A stretch of DNA of 64,000 nt from Echinarachnius parma (taxonomy: Eukaryota > Echinodermata > Echinoidea > Clypeasteroida > Echinarachniidae): the NCBI GenBank assembly GCA_037951105.1, contig JBAMJV010003045.1, positions 1-64,000 on the forward strand, in the 5' to 3' direction. This document shows positions 12,716 through 52,502 of the stretch, piece by piece (the first letter of the stretch is position 1; each line of letters begins with the position of its first letter). The translations under genes were made by a program, and so were the position numbers. A model generated the notes under the pieces. That model saw only the letters and a list, made by a program, of their open reading frames with translations. It searched no databases and was not told the origin of the DNA.

Positions 12716-13442
12716 GAGGTCTGTGGCTAGTTGAAGTGCCAACTGCACTAGCAATGGACATACAGTACAAATTGTACATAAGGTATAGACAATATATCAA
12801 TCAATCAATCAATCAATCAATCAATTTTCAATCAATTTATTTATCTATTTTGTTTTTATTTATTGAAGTAGCATTTTGTCAATTCACCCCCGTTATAAAA
12901 GTATTAAATGAGTAATTTGCAGGATTATTGAGTCAGCTAGCTAGGGCCGGGTTTGGATTTTCATGAGGGAGCGCATGTTATAGATGACTGCAGAGCTAGA
13001 TAGAGGTATTTCTATAATTGCATAACTAGCAGAGAGACCTGGCAGATCAGAGGCTGTTACGATACGCCATCTGCGGCAACGAAAGTTATTCGGAGTTAAA
13101 AAGGCCAGGCTTTAACAGTAGATAGAAAGGCAGTTAGTTTTCAGTCTAGTTATCTGTTTTTTAACATTGTTTATCACGTTTTGAAGACTGTTACCATGGA
13201 TATGTATTTTACCACAATATCAAGGATGTGTTTGACCTGTGCAAGTTCATTTGGAGGCGTTTGAGTAATGCAGACCTCAGTCATTTTGGTAATGTACACA
13301 TGATAGTCAATGAATGAAAGTGAATGATGATGACTCGCGTACTGTTGTTGTACAGTGCGTGTATGATGGCGCTGGGTGCAGGATTGTATCCACGATGTGT
13401 AGACCCAGATGTCAGGATTCATCTACAGTACAATGACAAGTT

Positions 13443-13829
13443 GCGTGTGTGTGTGGGTGTGTGTGTATGTATGTATGTATGTATGTGTGCGTGCGTGTGT
13501 GCGCGCGTGTGTGTGTGTCGTGTGTGCTTGCTATGTGTGTGTGTGTGTGTGTGTGCCTGTGTGCAAGCGCGCCCATGTGTACGTATGTGTGTGCGCGTGC
13601 GTGCGCACGTGTTGTTTGTATGTGTGTGCGTGCGCGCGTGTGTGTGTGTGTGTGTGTCGTGTGTGCTTGCTGTGTGTGCGCGTGCGTGTGCGCGCCCGTG
13701 TGTATGTGTGTGTTTGTTGTTTGTATGCGTGTGCGCGTATGTGTGTGTGTATGTATGTATGTATGTATGTATGTGTGTGTGCGTGCGCGCCCGCCCGTAT
13801 GTGTGTGTTTGGGTGTGTGACTGTGTGGG

Positions 13830-13879
<50 letters not shown>

Positions 13880-14016
13880 TGCGTGCGTACGTGCGTGCGT
13901 CCGTGTGTATGTGTGTGTTTGTTTGTTTGTGTATGCGTGTGTGTGAGTGTCGGTATATTTGTTTGCTTGTGTGTGTGTGTCTGTCTGTCTGTCTGTGTGT
14001 TTGTTTGTGTGCGCGC
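13443..14016. repeat. 575-bp GT/GC/GTAT alternating tract
   Basis: Almost uninterrupted alternating purine-pyrimidine sequence: GTGT with GCGC and GTAT blocks. All six frames are open for long stretches only because the repeat lacks stops. This composition favours Z-DNA. Confidence 0.95.
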
Positions 14017-14267
14017 GTAATGATAATTTAGTACGTCCTTAATTGCTTTACAATCTCCACTTTGCTTGTTTCGAAATTTTGTCGAACACGGAAAAAAATC
14101 GAATCTGAGAAAACAAAATTTGACCATCAACAATATGCCCCCAAATCGATTTATATTCGCTAAAACGGCCGTTTATGCCCTTTTAAGGCAATAGGGAAGC
14201 TTTTAAACACTATCGAAAACCAATCTTCGTCGAATCTGCTCGATATTGCTTGAAACGAATACATTTT

Positions 14268-18708: not shown

Positions 18709-21700
18709 CTAATACAAACCTGCAGGTGCCCGCAGATCAGGCATCCATGTAGCTCCCGGCATCACAGTTGGTGGTCCCCTCAGTGATGACTGAAAGTGCC
18801 CGTGTTGCTGCGTTGCCAGTCCGAATGGCTGCATTGCTGGGATCACCATCTGCGATGTAGTACTCAGTCGCTGTAGCGTCGGACCCAGTGTCTGCGGTGT
18901 CGGATTCAGCGGCTGCGATGTCGGTCCCATCATCGGCTGCGATGTCGATCCCATCATTGGCGTTGTCGGCCCCAGTGGCGGCTGCACTTTGGAGACTGGT
19001 AGTGGGGGGTCCCACTGCACCTGGCCTGAGGGTGGGTTGGATGATGGATACTGAGAAGACATAGCATGTTGAGGAGGATAAGGCATTGGAAAGGTCTGGG
19101 GCATGAAAGGGGCAACATAAGGCTTATTAGGATGTAGGGGGACGAACTGATGCTGGTCGTTCACTACAGCTGGGATGTGCATCAGGTTTGGTTGGATTTG
19201 TTGCAGGGTAGGGCCTCCTAGGTTGTCATAGGTCAGCCATGAAGGAGGTTGGCGGCGTCGGGGAGGTAATGGTGGGTTGGGTTGCTGCTGCAAGGGAGTG
19301 TCATCTCGTTGTTCAATTGATGGTGGAGTCACACTAGCCCTTCTATCTTGCTGTCCGTCATCAGTCACTTGTGGGGGTGGGGGTGTAGGTTGCACTGTCT
19401 CCGCCAGGTTGTTATTATCTGAAGATAGCTCATCATCTGAGGTAGGGGTTTCAACCGATGCATCACTTTCAGTTAGCTGGTGTTGAAAACCTGTTCTCCT
19501 TGTTGCTTCCCGATAATACATTTCTTCATCTGACGATTCTGCAGATGACAGTGACTTGTGGGAGGGTAGGGTTTTATTGGCTCCGGTTCTTCGCCGGGAT
19601 GGGGCCTTAACATCTGTTTCCTTGGGTTGCTCTACGTCCGAAACTGGAAAACCAGTACATGGTAACAGCATGTTGCGATGGAGGACTCTTGCCGGACCAG
19701 ACCCATTCTCACGAACTACTTCGTAGACCGGCAAGTCATTCCCTATCCTCTTTACTACCTGGTAAACTTCCTGTTCCCAATAGGGCTGGAGCTTGTTTGG
19801 GCCTGGAACGCGCTTATGGTTGCGGACAAGGACTCGATCACCTTTGTCAAGTGGGAGACTTGGCCGTTTCCCATCTTTCCTTCCCCTGGAGGTGCTCTTC
19901 TCCGCATTCCGTCGGGCTAAGGTGTATGCTTCCTGCATCTCATCCTTCCATCTGTTACAGAAGTCAGCATGTGTCACCTTGCCATCCTCCTTTTCTCCTT
20001 CCAGTTGGAAGACCAGATCAATGGGAAGCCTCGGTTCCCGCCCGTACATTAGGAAGAATGGGGAAAACCCGGTCGCTTCCGATTTTGTGCAGTTGTATGC
20101 ATGTACAACCTTGGGGAGATGGTCTTTCCAATTGGCCTTTTCGGTAGAAGTTAGGGTGCGCAGCATGGACAGTAGGGTACGGTTGAATCGTTCCACCTGC
20201 CCGTTCCCTTCTGGGTGGTAGGGGGTAGTTCTGGAGTGCTTGATGTTGGCCAGCATCTCCAATCGGCGGAACAACCGATTTTCAAACTCTCCTCCCTGGT
20301 CATGATGGATCCGCTGAGGAAAACCGAACTGCAGGATGAAGTTGTTAAAGATTTTATCCGCAACGGTTTTTGCTGACTTGTTCCTGGTGGGGTATGCTTG
20401 AGCCAATTTGGTAAAGTGGTCCATCACTACCAAAATATACTCGTACCCACCCTTGGACTTCTCCAGATGGAGAAAGTCGATGGAGACAAGTTCAAGCGGC
20501 TGAGTGCTGGTGATACTAGTCATTGGTGCCCTGATCTGTCTTGCTGGTTTCTTGTTCTTCAGGCAACTGCACCTAGATGTGATGAATTTTGTAATGTCAC
20601 CTTCCATCCCTGACCAGTAAAACCGCTCCCTCGCCAACTGCGTCACTCTCTCCGGTCCAAGGTGGCCCATGTTGACATGCAGCTCTTGGTACACCAGTTG
20701 CTTGTATTTGTCAGGTAGAACCAGTTGATTTCGTGTGGCAGTTTTCCGACGTAGAATTCCTTGATTGTCTACCACAAGTCGGTTCCATTCGTGGAGCAGC
20801 TTTTGGACTTCTTTTGTTGTTTTTCTCCGTTCTTTGGGGGATAATTGTGTTCCTCTTTCCTTTAGGTCCAGGATAACGGAGATGGTGGGGTCCTTCTTCT
20901 GGGAAGTTTGTATTTCTCCTGTTGTAAGCTGAGGTAGTCCCGCAGAAATGTGAACACTGGACACTTGGGCTGGGATGGCTTCTGCGCCGGAAAGAGCCAT
21001 GTTCCAGGGCACCTCCTTGTTTACCTGAACTCCATGGTGCACTGCCTGTATGATTGGTTCGGTGATCTCCTCTGAGTACCCGGTCATGTCTGGAACAGTG
21101 AGTGGTTCCCGCGAGAGCGTATCAGCATCACCATTCTTCTTTCCTGGACGGTACTTAATGCTGAAATGGAAATCAGCCAGTTCCCCAACCCATCTCATAC
21201 CAGTGGCGTTCAGCTTGGCAGAGGTTAGTACATAGGTGAGGGGGTTATTGTCGGTGAATATGACGAAGGGTGGAGAGTAGTACAGATAATCTCGGAACCG
21301 CTCACACACCGCCCATTTCAACGCCAGGAACTCAAGTTTTCCCGAGTGTAGGTGATAGTTCTTCTCTGCCGGAGTGAGGGAACGAGAAGCGTAGGCTATC
21401 ACTCTCAACTTGTTGTCCTGCTCCTGGTACAGCACTGCTCCCAGCCCTTCATGGGATGCATCGGTATGCACTACGAAGGGTTTTTCGAAGTCTGGGTAGG
21501 CCATGATGGGGGCTTGAAGAAGGCTGTCTATCAGGGATGTAATGGCTGAGCGATGGCACTCTTTCCACTCGATGGGTGTACTTGAAGGAAGGGAGTTGGA
21601 TGTCTTCTGTTTGGTGTATTTCTTCTTGTCTGGCTTGAGTTGTGTCTTGTCGATTGATAGGAGTTGGTACAAACAAGCAGCTCGTCGAGAGAAATTGGGA

Positions 21701-23514
21701 ATATATCTCCGATAATATCCCACCAGTCCGAGCAGCTTGCGCAGATCTCCCACTGTGGCTGGTGTTTTCTCCTTAAGCATGCGTACCGCCTCTGTATCGT
21801 TTGGATCAGCCTGATGACCATGTGCCGATACTATCCTACCTAGATATTTCACCTGGCTTTGGAAAAACTTGCATTTGGCTGGCTTTAGCTTGATGCCTTT
21901 CTCCTTTAGCCGACACAGGACTTTCTGTAGGTGGGCGACATGGTCATCGAAGGTTGGGCTGTAGATCAGGATGTCGTCTAGATAAACTGTGCAGATCTCT
22001 CCACTCAGGTCATCTAGACAACCTTCCATACAACGCTGGAAAACAGCAGGGGCATTGGTTAGTCCAAACGGGATGCGGTTCCATTCGTAAAGGCCCCATG
22101 GCGTGATGAAGGCAGTAAGGCGTTTACTGTCTTCTGCCATGAACCCCTGGTGGTAGGCCTTACCCTGATCCAGCGTTGTGAACCACGCATTTCCGCCCAG
22201 GCTGTCCAGTACTTCTTGGATACGGGGGATTGGTTGTCGGTCTGGAATAGTTTTCTGATTGAGTTGGCGGTAGTCAATGCAGAGTCTCAGTGTTCCATCC
22301 TTTTTCCTGACACAGACCACGGGTGAAGAATATGGCGAGCTGGACTTTCGGACCCATCCCTTCTCCAGCAGATTGGCCACATAATCCTTCACTTCTCGGA
22401 ACAATGGGCGTGGAACAGCCATGTAAGTCCTTTGAACAGGTGTTGGATCATTGAGACTGATGTTCATATGAAGATCTGGAATAGATCCGATGTCTTCATC
22501 TCCCATCGAGAAAACATCACGCTCTGCGTCTAACACACCAATGATTTTATCTCGTTGTTGTGGTGACAAGTGTCCCAGGTCGAATTTGTCATGGAAGGAT
22601 TGGGTAGGTGGGTCAGTAGTTACTTGATTAACCTTGGTGTTCTGAGTCTCATTGGTTGGGATGTGGTGGTGAACGGATGAAATTCCATGTAGGTGCCCAA
22701 GGACTGTCTTCTTTGGTAACACAATAGGACGAGATGAAGTATTGGTGACCAGGACTTGCACTCTGCACGAACTTCCACGTTTCACTTCCACCAGGAATGG
22801 GTCTATGCACAGGCCAGCATCAAACAATGGGTTCTCCTCGTCAGGCTCGAAAAGGCAGCGGGTCTTCCCTAGAGCACCGGAATGGATCCGGCACGGAACC
22901 TTATGACTTTTGCCAGGTGGTAGCACTGTTACCTTGTTCACTCTGGCCATCGGACATGCATCGATTTGGGCGGCCTCAAGTGTACTGATGATGCTGCTTA
23001 CCATCTCAGGAGGACTACTCATCGCTGATACTAGGGCTCGGTGTATTGCATCGGGGGAGGAAGAAGGGTGGTTGATCAGGGATTCAATGACGTTATAGCC
23101 AAGGATAGCATCCTCACTGATGGTGTGGTCTCCTACTACCAGAAAAGGGACTTGGATCTCTGCAGCTCCACTGCCATCAATCTGGACTGGTAGTTCAACA
23201 TATCCGCTGAAAGGGAGATTGGTACCATTTGCTGCTGACAATTGTAGATCCTGGTCTTGGAGGAGATGTGAAATTGGTTGAACTTGTTTGTGAGGGAGGG
23301 AGTCTTTAAGCCAGGAGCTGGAGATCAGGGAAACTTGGGCTCCAGTATCCCATAATACATGCGTTTTTCGCCCTTGGAGTAGACAATGAAGCATGCATTT
23401 TTTTCCTACCAGTTTCGCTACCTTGGTCTGAGATCGGGATGGGAAACTGGTTCTGATGTCTACATGTGGCTTGTAATGCTGCTTGGGACTTACTGGTTGG
23501 TTCCCGGTGGGCAC
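18709..23514 (-). CDS. pol: Gypsy pol polyprotein
   Basis: 1601-residue frame. Landmarks in order: aspartic protease DTGA near residue 56; reverse transcriptase with YLDDIL near 510; RNase [14 protein letters not shown] near 686; integrase with an HHCC finger near 948-985, DFLHLEK near 1010, [10 protein letters not shown] near 1073 and GQVERFNRT near 1105; a Pro/Gln-rich tail from about 1330. It overlaps the end of gag by 25 bp in the -1 frame. Elements of this family commonly use -1 frameshifting to make Gag-Pol. The start shown is only the first Met of the open frame. Confidence 0.95.
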
Positions 23515-24725
23515 GACCCGTCCCGTAGGGGTGCCCGCTGGCCGTTTCCCGCCAAGCAGCCTTTAGCTATGTGTCCTGTACTCCCGCACTTAAAACAATG
23601 GCGACACTGTCTGCCTTCTCCTTTCTTCCGGCATTCTGTGCAGCCCCATTCCAGCGGAGATCGTTGACTTGATGGGCCCTGCCGACCTGTTCGAGGAGCT
23701 GGATCACTCTCTCTGATGGCTGCAAACTCTGCCCTGATCAGAGCCTTGATCTCCTTGTGTAGGCTGCCCATGTCGACCTTTGTCTCCTTTTGATTCCCAG
23801 CCTCGAGTGTATTTATCTGGGCTGGTACCCTTTTCTTTTGTTTGGCAAGCCGCTCCGTCTCGTTGTTGGCGGCCAGATTCACGCTTTCCAGGAGGTCCTC
23901 ATCACTGGTCGACGGGTTGTTCAAGCAAGGCTTCATGTCGTTCCTGACACTCTCGTTCGCTAGGCCAGTCAGTGCAGAGTGCCTAAACATGTGCTCCACT
24001 AGGGCACCGTCGTAGCGAAATGAGGATCCGGCCTCCTGGGAAACAAACATTATTTTCTGTTTCAGGGCGAGTAGTCTAAGCAGAAAATCATGAGGCGTCT
24101 CCTTTTGTCCCTGAACCGCCCTACTCAGTTCATGGTACAATTCTGTGGCTTCCTTCTCCTGGTAGTGAGACCGTATTAACCGACGGAGGGTGGGTAGGTT
24201 GAGGTGGGGCCTTGATTCCAGATAACCCCTTAAAGTGAGGCCAGGCGCCATCGCACGAATAACGGCGTCAACGATCTCCTCATCTGGGTATCTCCTTTCT
24301 TTCCCGCGCTCTATTTGATGGATGAGGCTCATGAAACTGAGCCTCTCCTTCTGTCCTACCTCACCCACCTGACCGGAAATCTTGAATTCTCTCCTCCAGG
24401 ACATCGCCTCAGGTTTGGGTGCGTCATTGCTACGTGGTGGTGGTGGTGAGGCTACCTCTGCGTCATCGATGGGTCTGGTGGTCTCTTCCTTGATGTCAAT
24501 CATGTCAGCCACCTTCCTCCATGTAGCCTCTCCCTCGTCGTCGCTGTAATACAACTCATCTCTTCCTAGATGGGTTAAAATAAGCCTTCTGAGACCCTTA
24601 CTACCCTTTTCCTTACCTCTACTCACCTCATCCTCTGCTACTTTGAGGGCCGTCAACACGTCTATGAGTCCTTCGCTGCTACACCCTTCTAGTCCTTTGG
24701 CGACATCAGCGATAAGGCGCTCCAT
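23490..24725 (-). CDS. gag: Gypsy gag protein
   Basis: 411 residues. The N-terminal half is charged and helical. The central part (about 130-280, with [11 protein letters not shown]) resembles the retrotransposon capsid region. The end carries a CCHC knuckle [14 protein letters not shown], typical of nucleocapsid RNA binding. It is the first gene after the 5' LTR, and pol overlaps its end. Confidence 0.92.
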
Positions 24726-24890
24726 CCTGGTTGTTGAGGCTCTCCCAACTCTGCTATACGATTAGTTAGAAGGGGTTTGGTCTGGGTCAGGTCAGGTCTA
24801 ACCGGCTCGTCTCATTGGATGATGACGTGCAGCATCTAGTCCCTCGGGGACATCGAGACTGGTGACACCATCCGGGCAGTGCCTCCAAAA

Positions 24891-27549: not shown

Positions 27550-28226
27550 CTATGGAGCACAGAAGACACATGGGAGTCATAGCTGCCTGCATTTAACCCA
27601 TATTGCCTACGGGAACCGTATGGGCTAAGTACAAAGTCTATGGGAATTTCAGAATCTCAAAGGGAATGGGTTAAAAGGGAGCCAAATGCTGGCATTTTCA
27701 CTACTGTTTCTGGTAAATGCATAACTCCTCTCACTTCCAGTGGTATATTTCCTCTCAGGTATCGCTAATTATGGAGATAATAAATGTTTTTGAAACCATG
27801 CACTTTCATCTGTTTTGACTGAACACTGGAGGCTGCCATGTTAACCAACGGCACGGCATGAAACTTCCATTTGATTGGTAATTTAAAAAATGTGGGTTAC
27901 ATAGTGACTGACCTCACCTGATTAAACAGCCATTACATAACCCGCTTTTCTTAGTGCACACTCAGATGCAATAGAACCAAATGGAATGTGATATCTGACA
28001 GCCTTCTTTCATTAATGTATTCAGTTTTTTAATAAATATTCTTACTTCTATTGCCATAATTATAACAACAATCAACCATGTTTGTTATACTTTAGGTTAA
28101 GTACCCATGTGCACCGGCCAATCAACGCGGCCCGTTGTTGACCTATTAGGAACGTACTCGCTTATGTGAGATTGTGCGTTTGGAGCCACGGTAGAGCATA
28201 AAAACCGATTGTCTACATTAGATTAT

Positions 28227-28269
28227 ATCATTTGACAAAGTGTTGTAGCGGCACACGAAACGTCATGAT
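28227..28269 (+). ncRNA. Hammerhead-like ribozyme in repeat 1
   Basis: Stem I ATCAT/ATGAT; core TTGACAA in the place of CTGANGA; one extra A; stem II GTGT/ACAC; GAAA; then ACGTC, giving a tiny self-complementary stem III (ACGT) and a GTC cleavage triplet. Core positions 3 and 8, normally C and G, are T and A here, which could preserve their pairing. Confidence 0.6.
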
Positions 28270-28681
28270 CTTTTAGATTCCTAGTTGACCATACATTGCA
28301 AACGAATATCACTAGCGATATTATTTCCGATACTATATCCGCAATGGATAATATATTTACTATTATTGATTGAACATACGGGCGCCCTGCCCTGAAATTG
28401 ATACGTAGATATGAGCGTTGAAGCAAGAAGGTGGCTCGGTTTGACCGTGGGTTGGAATCAGCCGGTGGGGGCCGGTTGGTCGGGGTAGTGTCATGGCGAC
28501 GTATCGTACGCTGGTTCGGCAGGCGGGCCGAACCAGTGTCCCGTTGATTGGTTGAGTACCCGTGTGCACCGGCCAATCGACGCGGCCCTTTGTTGACCTA
28601 TTAGGAACGTACTTGCTTATGTAAGATTGTGCGTTTGGAGCCACGGTAGAGCATAAAAACCGATTGTCTACATTAGATTAT

Positions 28682-28724
28682 ATCATTTGACAAAGTGTTG
28701 CAGCGGCACACGAAACGTCATGAT
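28682..28724 (+). ncRNA. Hammerhead-like ribozyme in repeat 2
   Basis: Same layout as the copy 455 bp upstream. The only difference inside the motif is T to C in the stem II loop, so every paired and core position is kept. Confidence 0.6.
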
Positions 28725-29186
28725 CTTTTAGATTCCTAGTTGACCATACATTGCGAGACAAACGAATATCACTAGCGATATTATTTCCGATACTATATCC
28801 GCAATGGATAATATATTTACTATTCTTTAGGATCTTGTTTACTTTTAAAGAGATCTAGTTACATTGTCCCAATCCACAAATCTGTCTTGGAACTCTAGCA
28901 GTTCTCATATCCAATCAAAGCAAGGAACAGGTTTAATTTTTGTTGTAATTTTCCTTTCATTACAAAGATATTTGCGATTGAAGTGTTCAGATTTTTAGTT
29001 ATCCGCTGGAAAGTTATGACTGTGTGTATAGATCACAACAATACACATTTTATCAACTATTCATCACTTTTTGTACTTGTCAATAAAGTTACTAGATCCC
29101 TTTAAGGCCAATTCTGAAGGAAAAAATGTACCTAGAAGGATTTTAACAAGATTTATTTGATAAAAATCTATGATTATTCAACTTGC

Positions 29187-31529: not shown

Positions 31530-31812
31530 ATATCGTCGGTGACATTACGTACCGGCGAATCTTCAAATTTCAGTCGATTTTTCGATTTTGAGTTTTTGGC
31601 ATATTTTTGATGTCTATACCCAACTCTATCACAATTTTGTCTCTATTTTCGAATATCAATTTCTGAAAAACAATGCTATCGTGAATTTTGAAGACTGAAA
31701 TTCAGATATGTGATAGAGTTGGGTATAGACATCAAAAATATGCCAACAACTCAAAATCGAAAAATCAACCGAAATTTGAAGATTCGCCGGTACGTAATGT
31801 CACCGACGATAT
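31530..31812. mobile_element. 283-bp foldback element beside a splice donor
   Basis: Arms of about 105 bp begin ATATCGTCGGTGACATTACG and end with the complement at 31812; loop of about 70 bp. It ends 18 bp from the donor of exon e8. Confidence 0.85.
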
Positions 31813-31835
31813 GTACAGGTTTCTAACGCACATAC

Positions 31836-32080
31836 CATCGAGGCGGAGAGCGTACTGCTCACTTCCTTGGAAAGTGTATGCGCAGATGGCCAGGTAGGGA
31901 TTAGTTCTTGTCGTGGTGGTGTCTTGATTCCACAAGAGTTCCTGTCTGGAGTTGTCAGGGTTGTCGGGTAGCAAGGACCATGTGTACGTAGGTCTCTCTT
32001 GAAGGGTGCAGTTCTCACACCTAGCAGAGAGGACTAACCGCTCCGATGGATTCACACTCTCGCCACAATTGGTTAAGCAT
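31836..32080 (-). CDS. Polycystin/REJ-like exon e8 (REJ)
   Basis: 245 bp; acceptor TTTACAG|A, donor CGATG|GTATGT. Reads CLTNCGESVNPSERLVLSAR, then CENCTLQERPTYTWSLLP and NPYLAICAYTFQGSEQYALR. The pattern CxxNCGxxVNPSxRLxLxxxCxNC is characteristic of the REJ module; the cysteines probably pair. Confidence 0.9.
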
Positions 32081-32107
32081 CTGTAAAGGATATGTAATGA
32101 ATCGGAT

Positions 32108-32210
32108 GATAATGACGATGATGATGATGATGATGATGGTGATGGTGGTGGTGATGATGATGATGATGATGATGGATAATGATAATGATAATGATGATGA
32201 TAATAATAAT
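32108..32210. repeat. (ATG)n-type microsatellite
   Basis: GATGAT and related trinucleotides over about 100 bp, 28 bp upstream of the e8 acceptor. Confidence 0.95.
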
Positions 32211-35200
32211 GAGGTCTGTTTTGGTGGTGATGAAGAGTTTATTCTAATGAGCATGAAATATGGACCATAGATAGGTATGTTGCTCCTGAAGGGTGCAGTT
32301 CCAACACTTTGAAGAGAAGATGATATAGTCTGGTGGCCAGATTTTAAAAAAATGGATTAGGGAGTTCTGAATTGTAGGGGTTGGAGACAAGTATTTTCTG
32401 AAAGAGTATACCCTAGAGCTCAGGGGTTTGCTTGTCTCCAGAATTGAAAATTGGTTTCCTGGGAGATATATGGTTGCCATGGTAACCACTTCGTAAATTT
32501 TATAGAAAATGACAATATTTCGAAAAATTATAATTTCAAGGCCATGATGAGTGAACTTTCTTCTAAAAAAGATGTTTACAGATGTGGGAAAGATTCCCTA
32601 AAATGATTAGAGACTTTCATTAGGCAAGGTCAAATGTAAAGGTCAAAGTTTACAGGTCAAAGTACAAAAATTAATGGAAAAATCATGATTTTGTACATTG
32701 TACAGATATCTTTCATCTTCAAATGAATTTGCATAATTGAAACTGCTAGAAACAAATAATTATGGATAGAATGTATTATTACGATTCCAAAGCTGTATTT
32801 TCTGTCATATAGGACCATTTTACAAGGGAGATATGACATTTTAACGGTAACAATGTAAATGCCGCGATATAGTGCAATGTACACATAACATGTGTTATCC
32901 TATGCAAAATGTATACAGTGCTACAAACATTTTGCTAGTCAAGCGGGATGTCTGGAAAAGTTGAACGATACGGTTATTCAGCAATATAAACTGGGAAATG
33001 ACTTGTTGTTTACATAACTTAGGTATGCTGAATACGATAAGCCTTGTTTCCAAGTTAAATTTTTAGTTTTTGACCCCCTAATTTGCATAAACAAAATGGC
33101 CGCCGAAATTGTAATTTACGAATATTCTCATATCGTATGTCTGTTATCATGTAGAGATAGGAGTTACAAATTGAATATTTCTACCTATTTAATGATAGCC
33201 ATGCAAATAATACAAACCTTATATCGAAGTAAGTGATATTTACTCTTATACAAATATAGAAATTAGTGACTGGCATTAAAACAAATAATATTTTCGAAGG
33301 AACATTGTCAAAAAGACAGAATGATGTGGGAAAGATGCTCTAAAATGATTAAAGACTTTCATCGCGCAAGGTCAACAGTAAAGGTCAAAGTACAAAAATG
33401 AATGGAAAAATCATGTTTTTGTACATTGTACATGTTGTACTGATATATTTCATCTTCAAATGAATTTGCATAATTGAAACTGCTAGAAACAAATAATTAT
33501 GGATAGAATGTATTATTACGATTCCAAAGCTGTATTTTCTGTCATATAGGACCATTTTACAAGGGAGATATGACATTTTAACGGTAACAATGTAAATGCC
33601 GCGATATAGTGCAATGTACACATAACATGTGTTATCCTATGCAAAATGTATACAGTGCTACAAACATTTTGCTAGTCAAGCGGGATGTCTGGAAAAGTTG
33701 AACGATACGGTTATTCAGCAATATAAACTGGGAAATGACTTGTTGTTTACATAACTTAGGTATGCTGAATACGATAAGCCTTGTTTCCAAGTTAAATTTT
33801 TAGTTTTTGACCCCCTAATTTGCATAAACAAAATGGCCGCCGAAATTGTAATTTACGAATATTCTCATATCGTATGTCTGTTATCATGTAGAGATAGGAG
33901 TTACAAATTGAATATTTCTACCTATTTAATGATAGCCATGCAAATAATACAAACCTTATATCGAAGTAAGTGATATTTACTCTTATACGAATATAGAAAT
34001 TAGTGACTGGCATTAAAACAAATAATATTTTCGAAGGAACATTGTCAAAAAGACAGAATGATGTGGGAAAGATGCTCTAAAATGATTAAAGACTTTCATC
34101 GCGCAAGGTCAACAGTAAAGGTCAAAGTACAAAAATGAATGGAAAAATCATGTTTTTGTACATTGTACATGTTGTACTGATATATTTCATCTTCAAATGA
34201 ATTATCTAATTGAAACTGCCCCGTAAAGTGCAAAGCACACAGTACATGTGTTATCCTATGCAAAATCATACAATAATACAACTTACTAGTCTAGTTGAAT
34301 ATCTGGAAAAATTTAACGCTAAGGGAATTTAGAGAATATAAACTGAGGAAAATACTTATTTTCAGCATAATTCAGGTACGATGAATACGATAAGCTTTAT
34401 TTCCAAGATGATTTTCCAGTTATTGACCACCTAATCTGCATAAACACAATGGCCACCAACATCGTAATTTCCAAATATTCTTGTATCATATACTATTTTC
34501 TGAGATACGAATAACAAATGTATATCTCTACCTATGCCGTATTATGAAAGTCGATAGTAAATCAGAGATTTAATATTCACTTTCATGAATAATTATGCAA
34601 ATTAGTGACTAGCATTATACAAATCATATAATTACATCAATATGTATCATATTCGGTAAGCGAGTTTAACACTGAAGAGTCTTTATTCTGTAAGTAAGGC
34701 TTTGGCAACAAATTAAGGACATTTTTAAACCAATCAGAGTTATGAAACAATCACAATTAACGTTAATCCCCTCATTATCATTCAACAAAATGGCCACAAG
34801 ATATTATGTTGAGACCTTTACGGTAGTGGAACTTAAGCATTTCAAAGCTTTGTAATACATGTACAATGAAAATAAATTGTAAAAGGGATATTATACGTAT
34901 GGATAATTTGAGAGTGCTAAATTCTACAAATTATCGAGGTAACTAGAGTACTTAGATGCTCATGAATATGAAAATTAGTGGTGATCGCATCCAATAGAAC
35001 AATGTTAAAGTGTATTTACTTATGAATATTATTTGTTTGCAACTGGGCGAGGCATATTTTGCTTTGCTCATTTTCATATAATGAATATGTAAATTCAATA
35101 GTGAAGGAATAATTTCACTTATAAAAGAATCAACATTTCGAAATACTAATCACTACATTTTATTTACTTAATTTGCATAAAGAAACCTTAGTTATGTGCA

Positions 35201-45963: not shown

Positions 45964-46740
45964 GATGAATTACATCATTTGAAAGTATTTTTACAGAAAA
46001 CCTGAAGAAATCCTGTAATTTCTCTTGATTTTAGATGAAAATCCCCATTTCCCCCCAAATTCGTCAAAAATGTGCATATATATATTCAACATTTTAATTA
46101 ATTATAAAAAAAAAAAAATAATGGTCCAATTTGTTTTCTTTCTTCAAATTCTTATTCTACTTGACTTGTTTTACGTATGTGCCAATTTTCAAGTCAATCG
46201 GTCCATTCGTTGCCGTTGGCCCCCCCCCCCCCTCCCCCCCCCCCCCCAGTGGACTCAAGTCCCCAAAATAACCCAGTGGGATTAGGGTTAAAAGTCAAAT
46301 GACTCAATTACATTTTTCTTTATACTAATTGTTGTAAAGGGAGTATTCTTAAATTAAATAATTCAAGTTCGTATCGGGTATTTTTGTAGATTTGCTACTT
46401 GAGAAAATGTATATTGTAAAACATTTTCCTGTAGACGACAAATCTTCAGTAGATGTGGAACTATAATGCCATTTAAGGTAAACTCTAGTAGACTTTCATG
46501 AAAATAAAACATAATGCATGTATTCTTCTCACTTGATCTGAGTTGATTACCTCATATAACTCTCAGATTAAAACAAATAATGCATAAAATATTAATAAGT
46601 CCATATCTACAGTAGATGTGTTTACGAGTGATTTTACTTTTTTCATGAACATACTGCCATAAAAAGATTTAAATTCATGGTTGATTTTAAACACAGCTTT
46701 TAACAGAAACAAACATTTATTTTTAATCAACACATACTTT
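45964..46740. other. Intron with C run
   Basis: C-rich tract 46219-46249, otherwise AT-rich intron without recognised features. Confidence 0.6.
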
Positions 46741-46752
46741 ACAATAACTTAC

Positions 46753-47733
46753 CAATTGATACTGTACTACCTCCACTAATCCGGGCAAACAAAGAACACT
46801 GATGCACTGTCGCATAGGTCTGGTCAGCCCTGTTCACACCTGTCGATCCATCGCGTTCATATATCGTGACTAGCAGTCTGAAGACGTATTGCCCATAGTC
46901 CAATGTGAATGCAGGCACATATAGGTTGGTGAGGTTGGTATTCACGTATGGAGGAAGCAGATACAGATTCTCTGGGCTTGGGATGGTGAACACATCATCC
47001 AGCTTGTGCAGCAACCACTGGTAGGCTACGCTCCCACCTTGCGGACAACTGTAGAGGATGTCAGCTGCGAACTGGAACCGCCGGTCGCGATGGTAGTGCA
47101 TTGCAACCATGTGGCTGCTGGCACCATCCAGAATGTGCAGGCGGTTGATTTTGCAAGGCAGCGTCTGAACAAACACTTCCAAGGTGACCCGTCTCAACGA
47201 GACGGCATTAAATCCAATGGCATTTGTGATGTAGGCACCGGCTGAGGTGTATGTATGATTCACGATGACGGAATACAGCTCATGTGGGTCGAACGGAAGG
47301 TCAGACTCGGACTGAATATATGGTGCGAGGCTAGTATGCCCTTGTACTGCAAGCTCAAGAGAAAGTATGTACGAGCCATCTCCAAAGTCAATGGAGTATG
47401 CGGAAGTCATTCCTAGTTTGTATGAGAAGAGGACAAAGGACATGGCATTTCCTAGGGATACCGGTCCATTGTTGATGAGATATATTCCTGTGATTCCCTC
47501 TATCAAACTTATCAGGATACTGTCACTGCTATTTGACCAAGCATTGATAGCTGTGACTTCAACTACATAGTTCCCTTCTGCAGGGAATCTGTATTCTAGA
47601 GTAGGGTCATCTGTGTTGATTACTTCCCCGGCTATTGTCCACCGGTAGGACTGGACTGTTCCACTTGAAAACACCACATCAAACAGCACAGGGAATTCCT
47701 TTGGTAGATAGTAAGTGAGGTCTCCAGAATCTC
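46753..47733 (-). CDS. Polycystin/REJ-like exon e5 (two PKD repeats, REJ start)
   Basis: 981 bp, the largest exon; acceptor GTGTTACAG|GA, donor TTG|GTAAGT. Encodes about 327 residues: a PKD repeat (SYRWTIAGE...YRFPAEGNYVVEVTAINAWS), a second one (YSIDFGDGSY...VNHTYTSAGAYITNAIGFNA), then the beginning of the REJ module (CKINRLHILDG...RRFQFAADILYSCPQGGSVA, with YQW). Phases fit e4 and e6. Several NxS/T sites suit an extracellular domain. Two partial copies of its 5' end lie in the preceding intron. Confidence 0.93.
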
Positions 47734-47817
47734 CTGTAACACACGGGAAGGAAATAACAAAATTGTTCTCAAGAATATGAAGAAAAACATGAAATTTTCA
47801 TATCAAGACCAAATTCA

Positions 47818-51289: not shown

Positions 51290-51710
51290 CTAAGATAAAT
51301 CATTTATGAAACAAGAAATTGTTTGAAATTGTAATTAACAATAGTTTGTCATAGGTTTTGTAGAATAATCTTTAATGAACTTGCAATCTGTATTACTGCC
51401 ACTTGATGTTTTAATGTATTTTCAATGAGAGCAGTGTCACAGTTTTACTAATATAATAAAATGGTTTCTATGATAACATTTTCAAATACAATGCAGCTGT
51501 ATCTGCATCAACATAATATAAATATTCAAGTTAAAGAAAGTGTTCCTTTTTTCATATAATATTAATAGTATTTTATTCAACAAAATGTCACATTTGCAGA
51601 GCTCTACAAGCTGAATTGCAGTGTCATGTGAAACGATATTTACAAACATCAAAATAATGAAATCACAAGGTGTAAAGATATGACAATGATTAGAGATGGG
51701 TTATACATAC
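51290..51710. other. Intron e1-e2
   Basis: AT-rich, nothing recognised. Confidence 0.5.
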
Positions 51711-52321
51711 CAACTCTACGAGCTTGAGTTCTGATTCACAGTACACTGCGGTAGCATTGGCTTCACTGTATGATGTCACTGAGACTTTGTGAATTCCCAA
51801 TCCAATAATATACTGCAGTTCCATAGGAAATGGGAGACTATCTAGCGGTACAGCATAGAGCTCCTCATTCTCCAGTGGACCATAGGAGAAACTTTCTTCG
51901 AAGACTGAATGACCATCAAGTGACATGTAGTAATACAGAGGATCTTCAAAGTTGTAATGGTAAAAGACCAGAAGGTTTGACTCTCCCAGTAGGTAGATGT
52001 CATAATCGTAAGTTAGATTGACGCTCCTGAATGCGCAGATTTCATAGTGAATCTGGGAGTACACCAAAACTTCTGAATAATAACCATTGAGGTTGCCAAA
52101 TGTTTCACAGACGGTTTGGATGAAATATGCTGCAGGACTGTCATAGCTGTGGGTGATTGGTCCCTGCTGCAGTTCAGATGCATCTGTTAGGTAAACTTCA
52201 CCATCACCGAAGTCCCAAGAGCACAGGATATCGGGGTAAGATGTGAAGTCTGTCACAAAGTTGATTCCAAATTTCTGATTTACAGCAGCCAGTGATGGTG
52301 TCGTCACAGAAAATACATCAT
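51711..52321 (-). CDS. Polycystin/REJ-like exon e1 in window (PKD repeat)
   Basis: 611 bp; acceptor TTCTAACAG|AT, donor TTG|GTATGT. It opens with two bases of a split codon, so an exon upstream (beyond the window or unseen) ends one base into a codon. Contains a PKD repeat: CSWDFGDGEVYLTDASEL, ITHSYDSPAAYFIQTVCETF. A second beta-rich region follows (YEICAFRSVNLTYDYDIYLL). Its 5' third is echoed by four or five decayed copies upstream. Confidence 0.92.
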
Positions 52322-52502
52322 CTGTTAGAAAATAAATGAGAACAAGACATACAATTTTTACTTAGCATGATGCATATTCATTCTTTTTAGCACAATTCAC
52401 TTTTTTCATAATAGGAATCAATTTTAAAAAGCATGTTCTTGAGCAACAAAATTTAACACTAACTTACCAGGGGTACAAAATGTGTTGGCCAGTAAAACAT
52501 AA

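Follow-up and report, generated by a model that had tools for sequence, protein, structure and literature searches.

The 64,000-nucleotide stretch of Echinarachnius parma DNA analysed here (hereinafter the window) contains two hammerhead-like motifs whose core reads UUGACAA instead of the canonical CUGANGA. This raises the question of whether the pair between core positions 3 and 8, C-G in known hammerheads, has been exchanged for U-A in a ribozyme that is still maintained, and of what kind of mobile element carries it. Parts of the answer have precedents: natural covariation of C3-G8 to U3-A8 is known from "several examples", as Perreault et al. (2011, PMC3088659) put it, and Penelope-like elements (PLEs) with minimal hammerheads are likewise known and have been named as strong candidates for the movers of metazoan retrozymes, since the two kinds of element occur together, both in tandem copies and both with type I hammerheads (PMC7229834, PMC7761336). 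What appears from the sequences to be new is a large lineage in which U3-A8 is nearly fixed, and a direct sequence link between a retrozyme-like unit and PLEs. Our literature searches, whose coverage lay outside the key papers, returned, among the papers listed, no comparable work linking hammerheads or retrozymes to echinoderms or, more narrowly, to sea urchins, and nothing on G8A or C3-G8 in hammerhead ribozymes.

The element spans positions 28097-28824 of the window and consists, as delimited by repeat comparison, of one full 455-bp unit (28097..28551, forward strand) followed by a partial second unit (28552..28824, forward strand) that ends near unit position 270, with the unstranded duplication CTTTAGG on both sides (28090..28096 and 28825..28831). 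Two direct repeats underlie this arrangement (28095-28367 and 28550-28827), matching over 205 nt (97%) and 69 nt (99%) at offsets of 455 and 460 bp; units are 455-461 bp long with a GC content of 47.3%. Each unit carries one hammerhead motif on the forward strand, AUCAU-UUGACAA-A-GUGU-loop-ACAC-GAAACGUC-AUGAU, with five pairs in stem I and four in stem II. In the first (28227..28269), stem I is formed by 28227-28231 and 28265-28269, the core occupies 28232-28238, an extra unpaired A at 28239 separates core position 9 from stem II (28240-28243 and 28253-28256), and GAAACGUC (28257-28264) ends at the cut predicted, by analogy with known hammerheads, after 28264. The second (28682..28724) has its core at 28687-28693, the extra A at 28694, and GAAACGUC at 28712-28719, with the predicted cut after 28719. 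The two motifs differ only in loop II (T at 28246, C at 28701). Hence the original prediction was accurate in its two repeats 455 bp apart, its 7-bp flanking duplication, its layout of stem I ATCAT/ATGAT, stem II GTGT/ACAC, GAAACGTC, and core TTGACAA in both copies, its U-A at positions 3 and 8, and its single loop difference. Beyond that prediction go the extra A, the lack of a private stem III, the two PLE pieces in the spacer, and the PLE-type 3' ends, all treated below. Upstream of the first hammerhead, in the pLTR, a TATA-like GCATAAAAA (28196..28204, forward strand) may act as a promoter.

The rest of the window holds other features: an LTR-retrotransposon coding region (18709-24761, reverse strand) with a 1617-codon frame containing RT, RNase H, and integrase domains, beside a 423-codon gag-like frame that had no Pfam match; REJ and PKD exons, probably of a polycystin-like gene (31765-32238, 46739-47797, and 51690-52361, all on the reverse strand), the last PKD match falling below Pfam's cut-off; and a long CA/GT-rich simple repeat in which several frames are open (13324-14038).

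The motif corresponds to a minimal type I hammerhead with one extra core nucleotide, in which positions 3 and 8 still pair, as U-A. Allowing up to three mismatches, it occurs twice in the 64 kb (28232-28264 and 28687-28719) and had no match in 100 shuffles. Across the genome, U3-A8 and C3-G8 motifs alike have this extra A. De la Pena and Flores reportedly described, in 2001, a viroid hammerhead that likewise has one extra core nucleotide between A9 and stem II, differing from the present case in that here the addition is shared by both core types. The private stem III of the canonical type I hammerheads of metazoan non-LTR retrozymes is missing: the AC and GU are adjacent, and the palindrome ACGU can pair only from motif to motif. 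Since this stem III could form only between two motifs, we propose that the ribozymes would cut as a dimer, in line with what two papers say of minimal PLE hammerheads (PMC7761336, PMC6466107). With cuts after 28264 and 28719, the product would be a 455-nt RNA (28265-28719). The folding energies, which ignore tertiary contacts, do not favour the intermolecular stem III and count against dimer cutting: ViennaRNA prefers another structure for two U3-A8 motifs (-24.1 kcal/mol versus -5.7 for the forced double hammerhead), and does so likewise for the C3-G8 motif (-32.5 versus -10.5). As a circle, the 455-nt RNA is not clearly more structured than expected (-140.8 versus -132.3, sd 6.5, in 20 mononucleotide shuffles). 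Rfam searches gave no match in the window at gathering level and no hammerhead between 27900 and 29000 at E≤10, where one unrelated sub-threshold snoRNA match appeared; RF00163 found no match in the genome, and its 14 controls were equally silent, making it uninformative about absence. The motif pattern had no match in a viral sequence collection.

We then turned to the core pair across the 1.2-Gb assembly (14790 contigs), using patterns anchored on GAAACGTC with the reversed pattern as control. U3-A8 was the largest of the four classes counted (3187; control 302), followed by C3-G8 (2234; control 66), while the single-change forms came to 147 for U3.G8 (control 142) and 162 for C3.A8 (control 97). 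About a third of the single-change matches listed resemble hammerhead relatives by eye; such forms are real but rare, in the tens as against thousands. Within the element itself, core positions 3, 4, 5, 6, 8, and 9 are invariant in 69 copies, and the free N7 alone varies (2/69); this set excludes the flank-identical duplicates C8825, C2223, and C11396, the PLE-type loci C48, C25, and C30, and matches below 88%. The genome counts together with the invariant core rule out a lone decayed copy among canonical ones, the outcome that would have spoken against the original prediction. The GAAA strand and the NUH cut triplet GUC show the majority base at each position in 69-71 copies with few single-base changes, among them a G as the cut-site base in 2 of 71.

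Compensatory changes across copies, which had also been anticipated, are present in both stems. At stem II pair 146/158, 46 copies have GC, 21 have AT (spread over five contigs), and two are broken; at stem I pair 135/169, 57 have U-A, 10 have U.G, and one is gapped. In an alignment of 19 distinct motifs chosen from 28 in the loci examined (A1), 91.6% of cells pair, a share that falls to 76.1% on shuffling and to no more than 54.7% when the sequences are slid; its 3-8 pair is UA in 13 rows, CG in four, and unpaired in two that belong to other hammerhead families. Bases 3 and 8 lie on the same strand, five apart, so their covariation is accounted for by a hammerhead core and not by a plain hairpin. 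Taken with the core-class counts, these changes support, as far as sequence can speak, the prediction of a maintained ribozyme with a covariant core. As the copies are related, the switch to U3-A8 may nevertheless have been a single event.

A possible route for the switch is offered by the C3-G8 motif that is closest among the matches listed (AUCAC-CUGACGA-A-GUGUUGCAGCGGCGCAC-GAAACGUC-GUGAU), which differs from the second motif of the window by five bases. Three of these are G-to-A, each in a CpG (core position 8, stem II, and the first stem I base), and the other two are C-to-U at the partners of core position 8 and of that stem I base; the second motif retains CpGs at the end of stem II/GAAA, in ACGU, and once in loop II. 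We infer that CpG loss followed by a compensating change could have produced the swap. Among other motifs recovered in these searches, C155:188668-188700 (reverse strand; TTGATAA-A-GGCC-loop-GGCC-GAAACGTC) has U3-A8 and a paired stem II, belongs to a different sequence family, and is possibly an independent switch; the window's own contig carries, outside the window, a same-family single-change U3.G8 motif, TTGACGA (C3044:84112-84144, reverse strand). A second abundant hammerhead family, CTGACGA-C-GGATAGTCAACCTATTC-GAAACGTC (L032, L039, and L040), has C3-G8 and an extra C after A9; its loci are rich in other repeats and show no match to the 455-bp unit.

The origin of the unit is indicated by its similarity to PLEs of the same genome. 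Cervera and de la Pena in 2014 and Lunse et al. in 2017 are said to have described PLEs with minimal type I hammerheads. Unit positions 1-236 are 78.6% identical to the pLTR behind the ORF of the PLE L063, and coding remnants lie at both ends of the spacer. On the forward strand, the remnant of a PLE ORF start (28344..28454, with an ATG at 28344) has its similarity at unit positions 254-358 (28350-28454), which match residues 2-36 of the PLE protein P0003 in tblastn (66% identity, E 1e-10) with two in-frame stops; on the reverse strand, unit positions 354-415 (28450..28511) are an inverted fragment of a PLE ORF end (79% identity to L041, 85.5% to L063). The intervening RT and GIY-YIG ORF is missing, leaving only these stop-broken and inverted pieces. 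With its pLTR, hammerhead, ORF remnants, and the two 3' ends described below, the unit is, by all appearances, an internally deleted PLE, which makes the earlier Penelope label exact.

The related PLEs themselves carry hammerheads of either core type. In L063, a 629-codon frame containing an RT domain (RVT_1) is accompanied by an inverted 5' piece and by a U3-A8 hammerhead in which one stem I pair is mismatched; a GIY-YIG-like end was read by eye where Pfam gave no match, and relatives carry PF01541. The frame (L063:3383-5269) shows 90% identity over 84% of its length to a Strongylocentrotus purpuratus protein, and a search of PDB sequences with the PLE ORF had no match. L041 (C48) and C716 carry C3-G8 hammerheads. 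The genome holds at least 150 PLE matches (150 of 1708 candidates scored), and for 7 of the 11 on contigs C1-C250 a U3-A8 motif follows, 187-203 bp beyond the end of the similarity (C6, C35, C37, C45, C180, and C247, the last twice). At C48 a C3-G8 motif lies 0.5 kb away, across an insertion, and the remaining three (C71, C172, and C214) have neither U3-A8 nor C3-G8 among the matches listed.

The insertion habit of the element is also that of PLEs. We found at least 84 matches to it in the genome, with 40 of 2348 first-look candidates scored; some contigs share both insertion and flanks (C3044 and C8825; C177, C2223, and C11396), which suggests that haplotypes were left unmerged in the assembly and that copies may have been overcounted. 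Among 42 chained segments, which include PLE loci and duplicates, 14 end at unit positions 229-240, 14 at 267-272, three at 277 (a single insertion on three contigs), and 11 elsewhere. Thus there are two usual 3' ends about 34 bp apart (unit positions 236 and about 270), and the stretch between them (28333..28366, forward strand) would correspond to an optional tail like that of PLEs, for which PMC11167929 describes two RT start sites on either side of a 30-40 bp tail, as well as copies arranged fully or partly in tandem. The 5' starts fall at 34 different positions among the 42 segments, as befits variable 5' truncation. Flanking duplications of 7-14 bp were found in 10 of 25 insertions (shuffled flanks: mean 0.66, maximum 4), two of the ten being one insertion on two contigs, and none of 6 bp or more in 14. 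Five of the ten (C4578, C3213, C5918, C2425, and C1363) contain both orientations, and an inverted 5' piece within an insertion is a PLE habit. Of the regions measured, that from the hammerhead to the first 3' end (unit positions 174-236) has the lowest variability (0.009) apart from the core itself (0.004), which would fit a candidate protein-binding or RT-start site. Two copies of the element are interrupted at different unit positions by a stretch of about 337 bp starting CCCAGCTAGCCACCTGACG (C13066:35267-35603 and C6166:112340-112674; L015, L026, and L050), whose ends look inverted and which is perhaps a small DNA transposon.

These data bear on two further explanations. Satellite DNA of the ordinary kind, similar to hammerheads by chance, could account for some long arrays, such as the 10 chained segments at C7471, but the element is dispersed in short insertions that favour certain 3' ends and show flanking duplications, and its motif counts are far above the controls with no shuffle match; a plain satellite is ruled out on these grounds, and we give the idea a negligible probability. 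A classical metazoan non-LTR retrozyme, unrelated to PLEs and moved by another retrotransposon such as a LINE, would share with the element its small GC-poor tandem units, type I hammerhead, and many copies, as well as arrays from tens of bp to kb, by the description in PMC7229834. The GC content lies under the 50% of such retrozymes, and the length of 455-461 bp falls just above the 150-450 bp quoted there. Against this explanation, which we regard as very improbable, stand the PLE coding remnants at both spacer ends, the similarity to the pLTR, the PLE-type double 3' ends, and a hammerhead of the minimal, PLE kind; PLE descent is thus visible in the unit. Retrozymes of the metazoan non-LTR class are also expressed as linear and circular RNA, which for the unit is a prediction.

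The closest known counterpart is PAc/Poseidon of Anolis, a PLE with a minimal type I hammerhead (PMC11167929). PLEs of this type share with the element the tandem or partial-tandem copies, the pLTR with a minimal hammerhead, the 3' ends 30-40 bp apart, and, in the unit's relatives, a protein with RT plus GIY-YIG. They differ from it in that the unit has no working ORF and has instead an inverted ORF-end piece and U3-A8; moreover, the ORF starts after the hammerhead here (the ATG lies 80 bp past the cut site) and at stem II in PAc.

We accordingly read the element, with a probability of roughly three in four for the reading as a whole, as a non-autonomous, internally deleted PLE of retrozyme type with a dimeric U3-A8 hammerhead, a 455-nt RNA, and copying in trans. 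Under this reading a tandem transcript, probably initiated in the pLTR, would contain one minimal type I hammerhead per unit, with U3-A8 substituting for C3-G8 and the rest of the consensus core retained. Two ribozymes, joined by the ACGU stem III, would cut as a dimer and free the 455-nt RNA, which might also circularise. For its copying this RNA would depend in trans on a related autonomous PLE, whose RT/endonuclease protein would start from one of the two internal sites at a nicked target; as the insertions suggest, the outcome would be short duplications on the flanks, 5' ends truncated to varying extents, and in many cases an inverted piece at the 5' end.

The main competitor to this reading is a PLE derivative that carries its U3-A8 hammerhead as a passenger, either inactive or dispensable: because, on this account, PLE insertion needs no ribozyme cutting, a master copy could have gained both changes and then been amplified. 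For PAc, the single PLE studied in vitro, insertion still took place with RNA whose ribozyme had been disabled, hammerhead cutting required the PAc protein, and RNA-seq is described as having no ends at the cut site (PMC11167929). A passenger would also sit well with the folding energies, the possibility that all U3-A8 copies trace to one event, the stem I mispair in L063, and the G at the cut site in two copies. It would leave unexplained why two positions whose pairing exists only in a hammerhead core changed together, why core variation is restricted to N7, and why 21 copies have stem II changed on both sides; furthermore, U3-A8 is reported to be active in vitro in other hammerheads (PMC3088659, citing its ref. 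32). On balance we consider the passenger unlikely, though by far less so than the satellite or the classical retrozyme.

The deleted-PLE reading can be extended, tentatively and at somewhat less than even odds for the whole, to a PLE lineage that together with its deleted derivatives switched from the near-universal C3-G8 to U3-A8 and kept the new pair working through thousands of insertions, where CpG loss would have driven the swap and compensating C-to-U changes rescued it, the retrozyme-like unit being a Penelope copied in trans. The odds are lowered because single-change forms occur and the energies do not favour the double hammerhead. In contrast to the several examples of Perreault et al. 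(2011, PMC3088659), with which it shares the covariation of C3-G8 to U3-A8, U3-A8 is here the near-fixed state of a large mobile lineage. With kindred mobile lineages of both core types in one genome, nature has set up an experiment on a Watson-Crick pair in the hammerhead core, as the activities of the two can be compared. Likewise, since the retrozyme-like unit can be seen to derive from a PLE by deletion and has 3' ends of PLE type, the movement of such units in trans, as would follow if PLEs are their movers, becomes directly testable.
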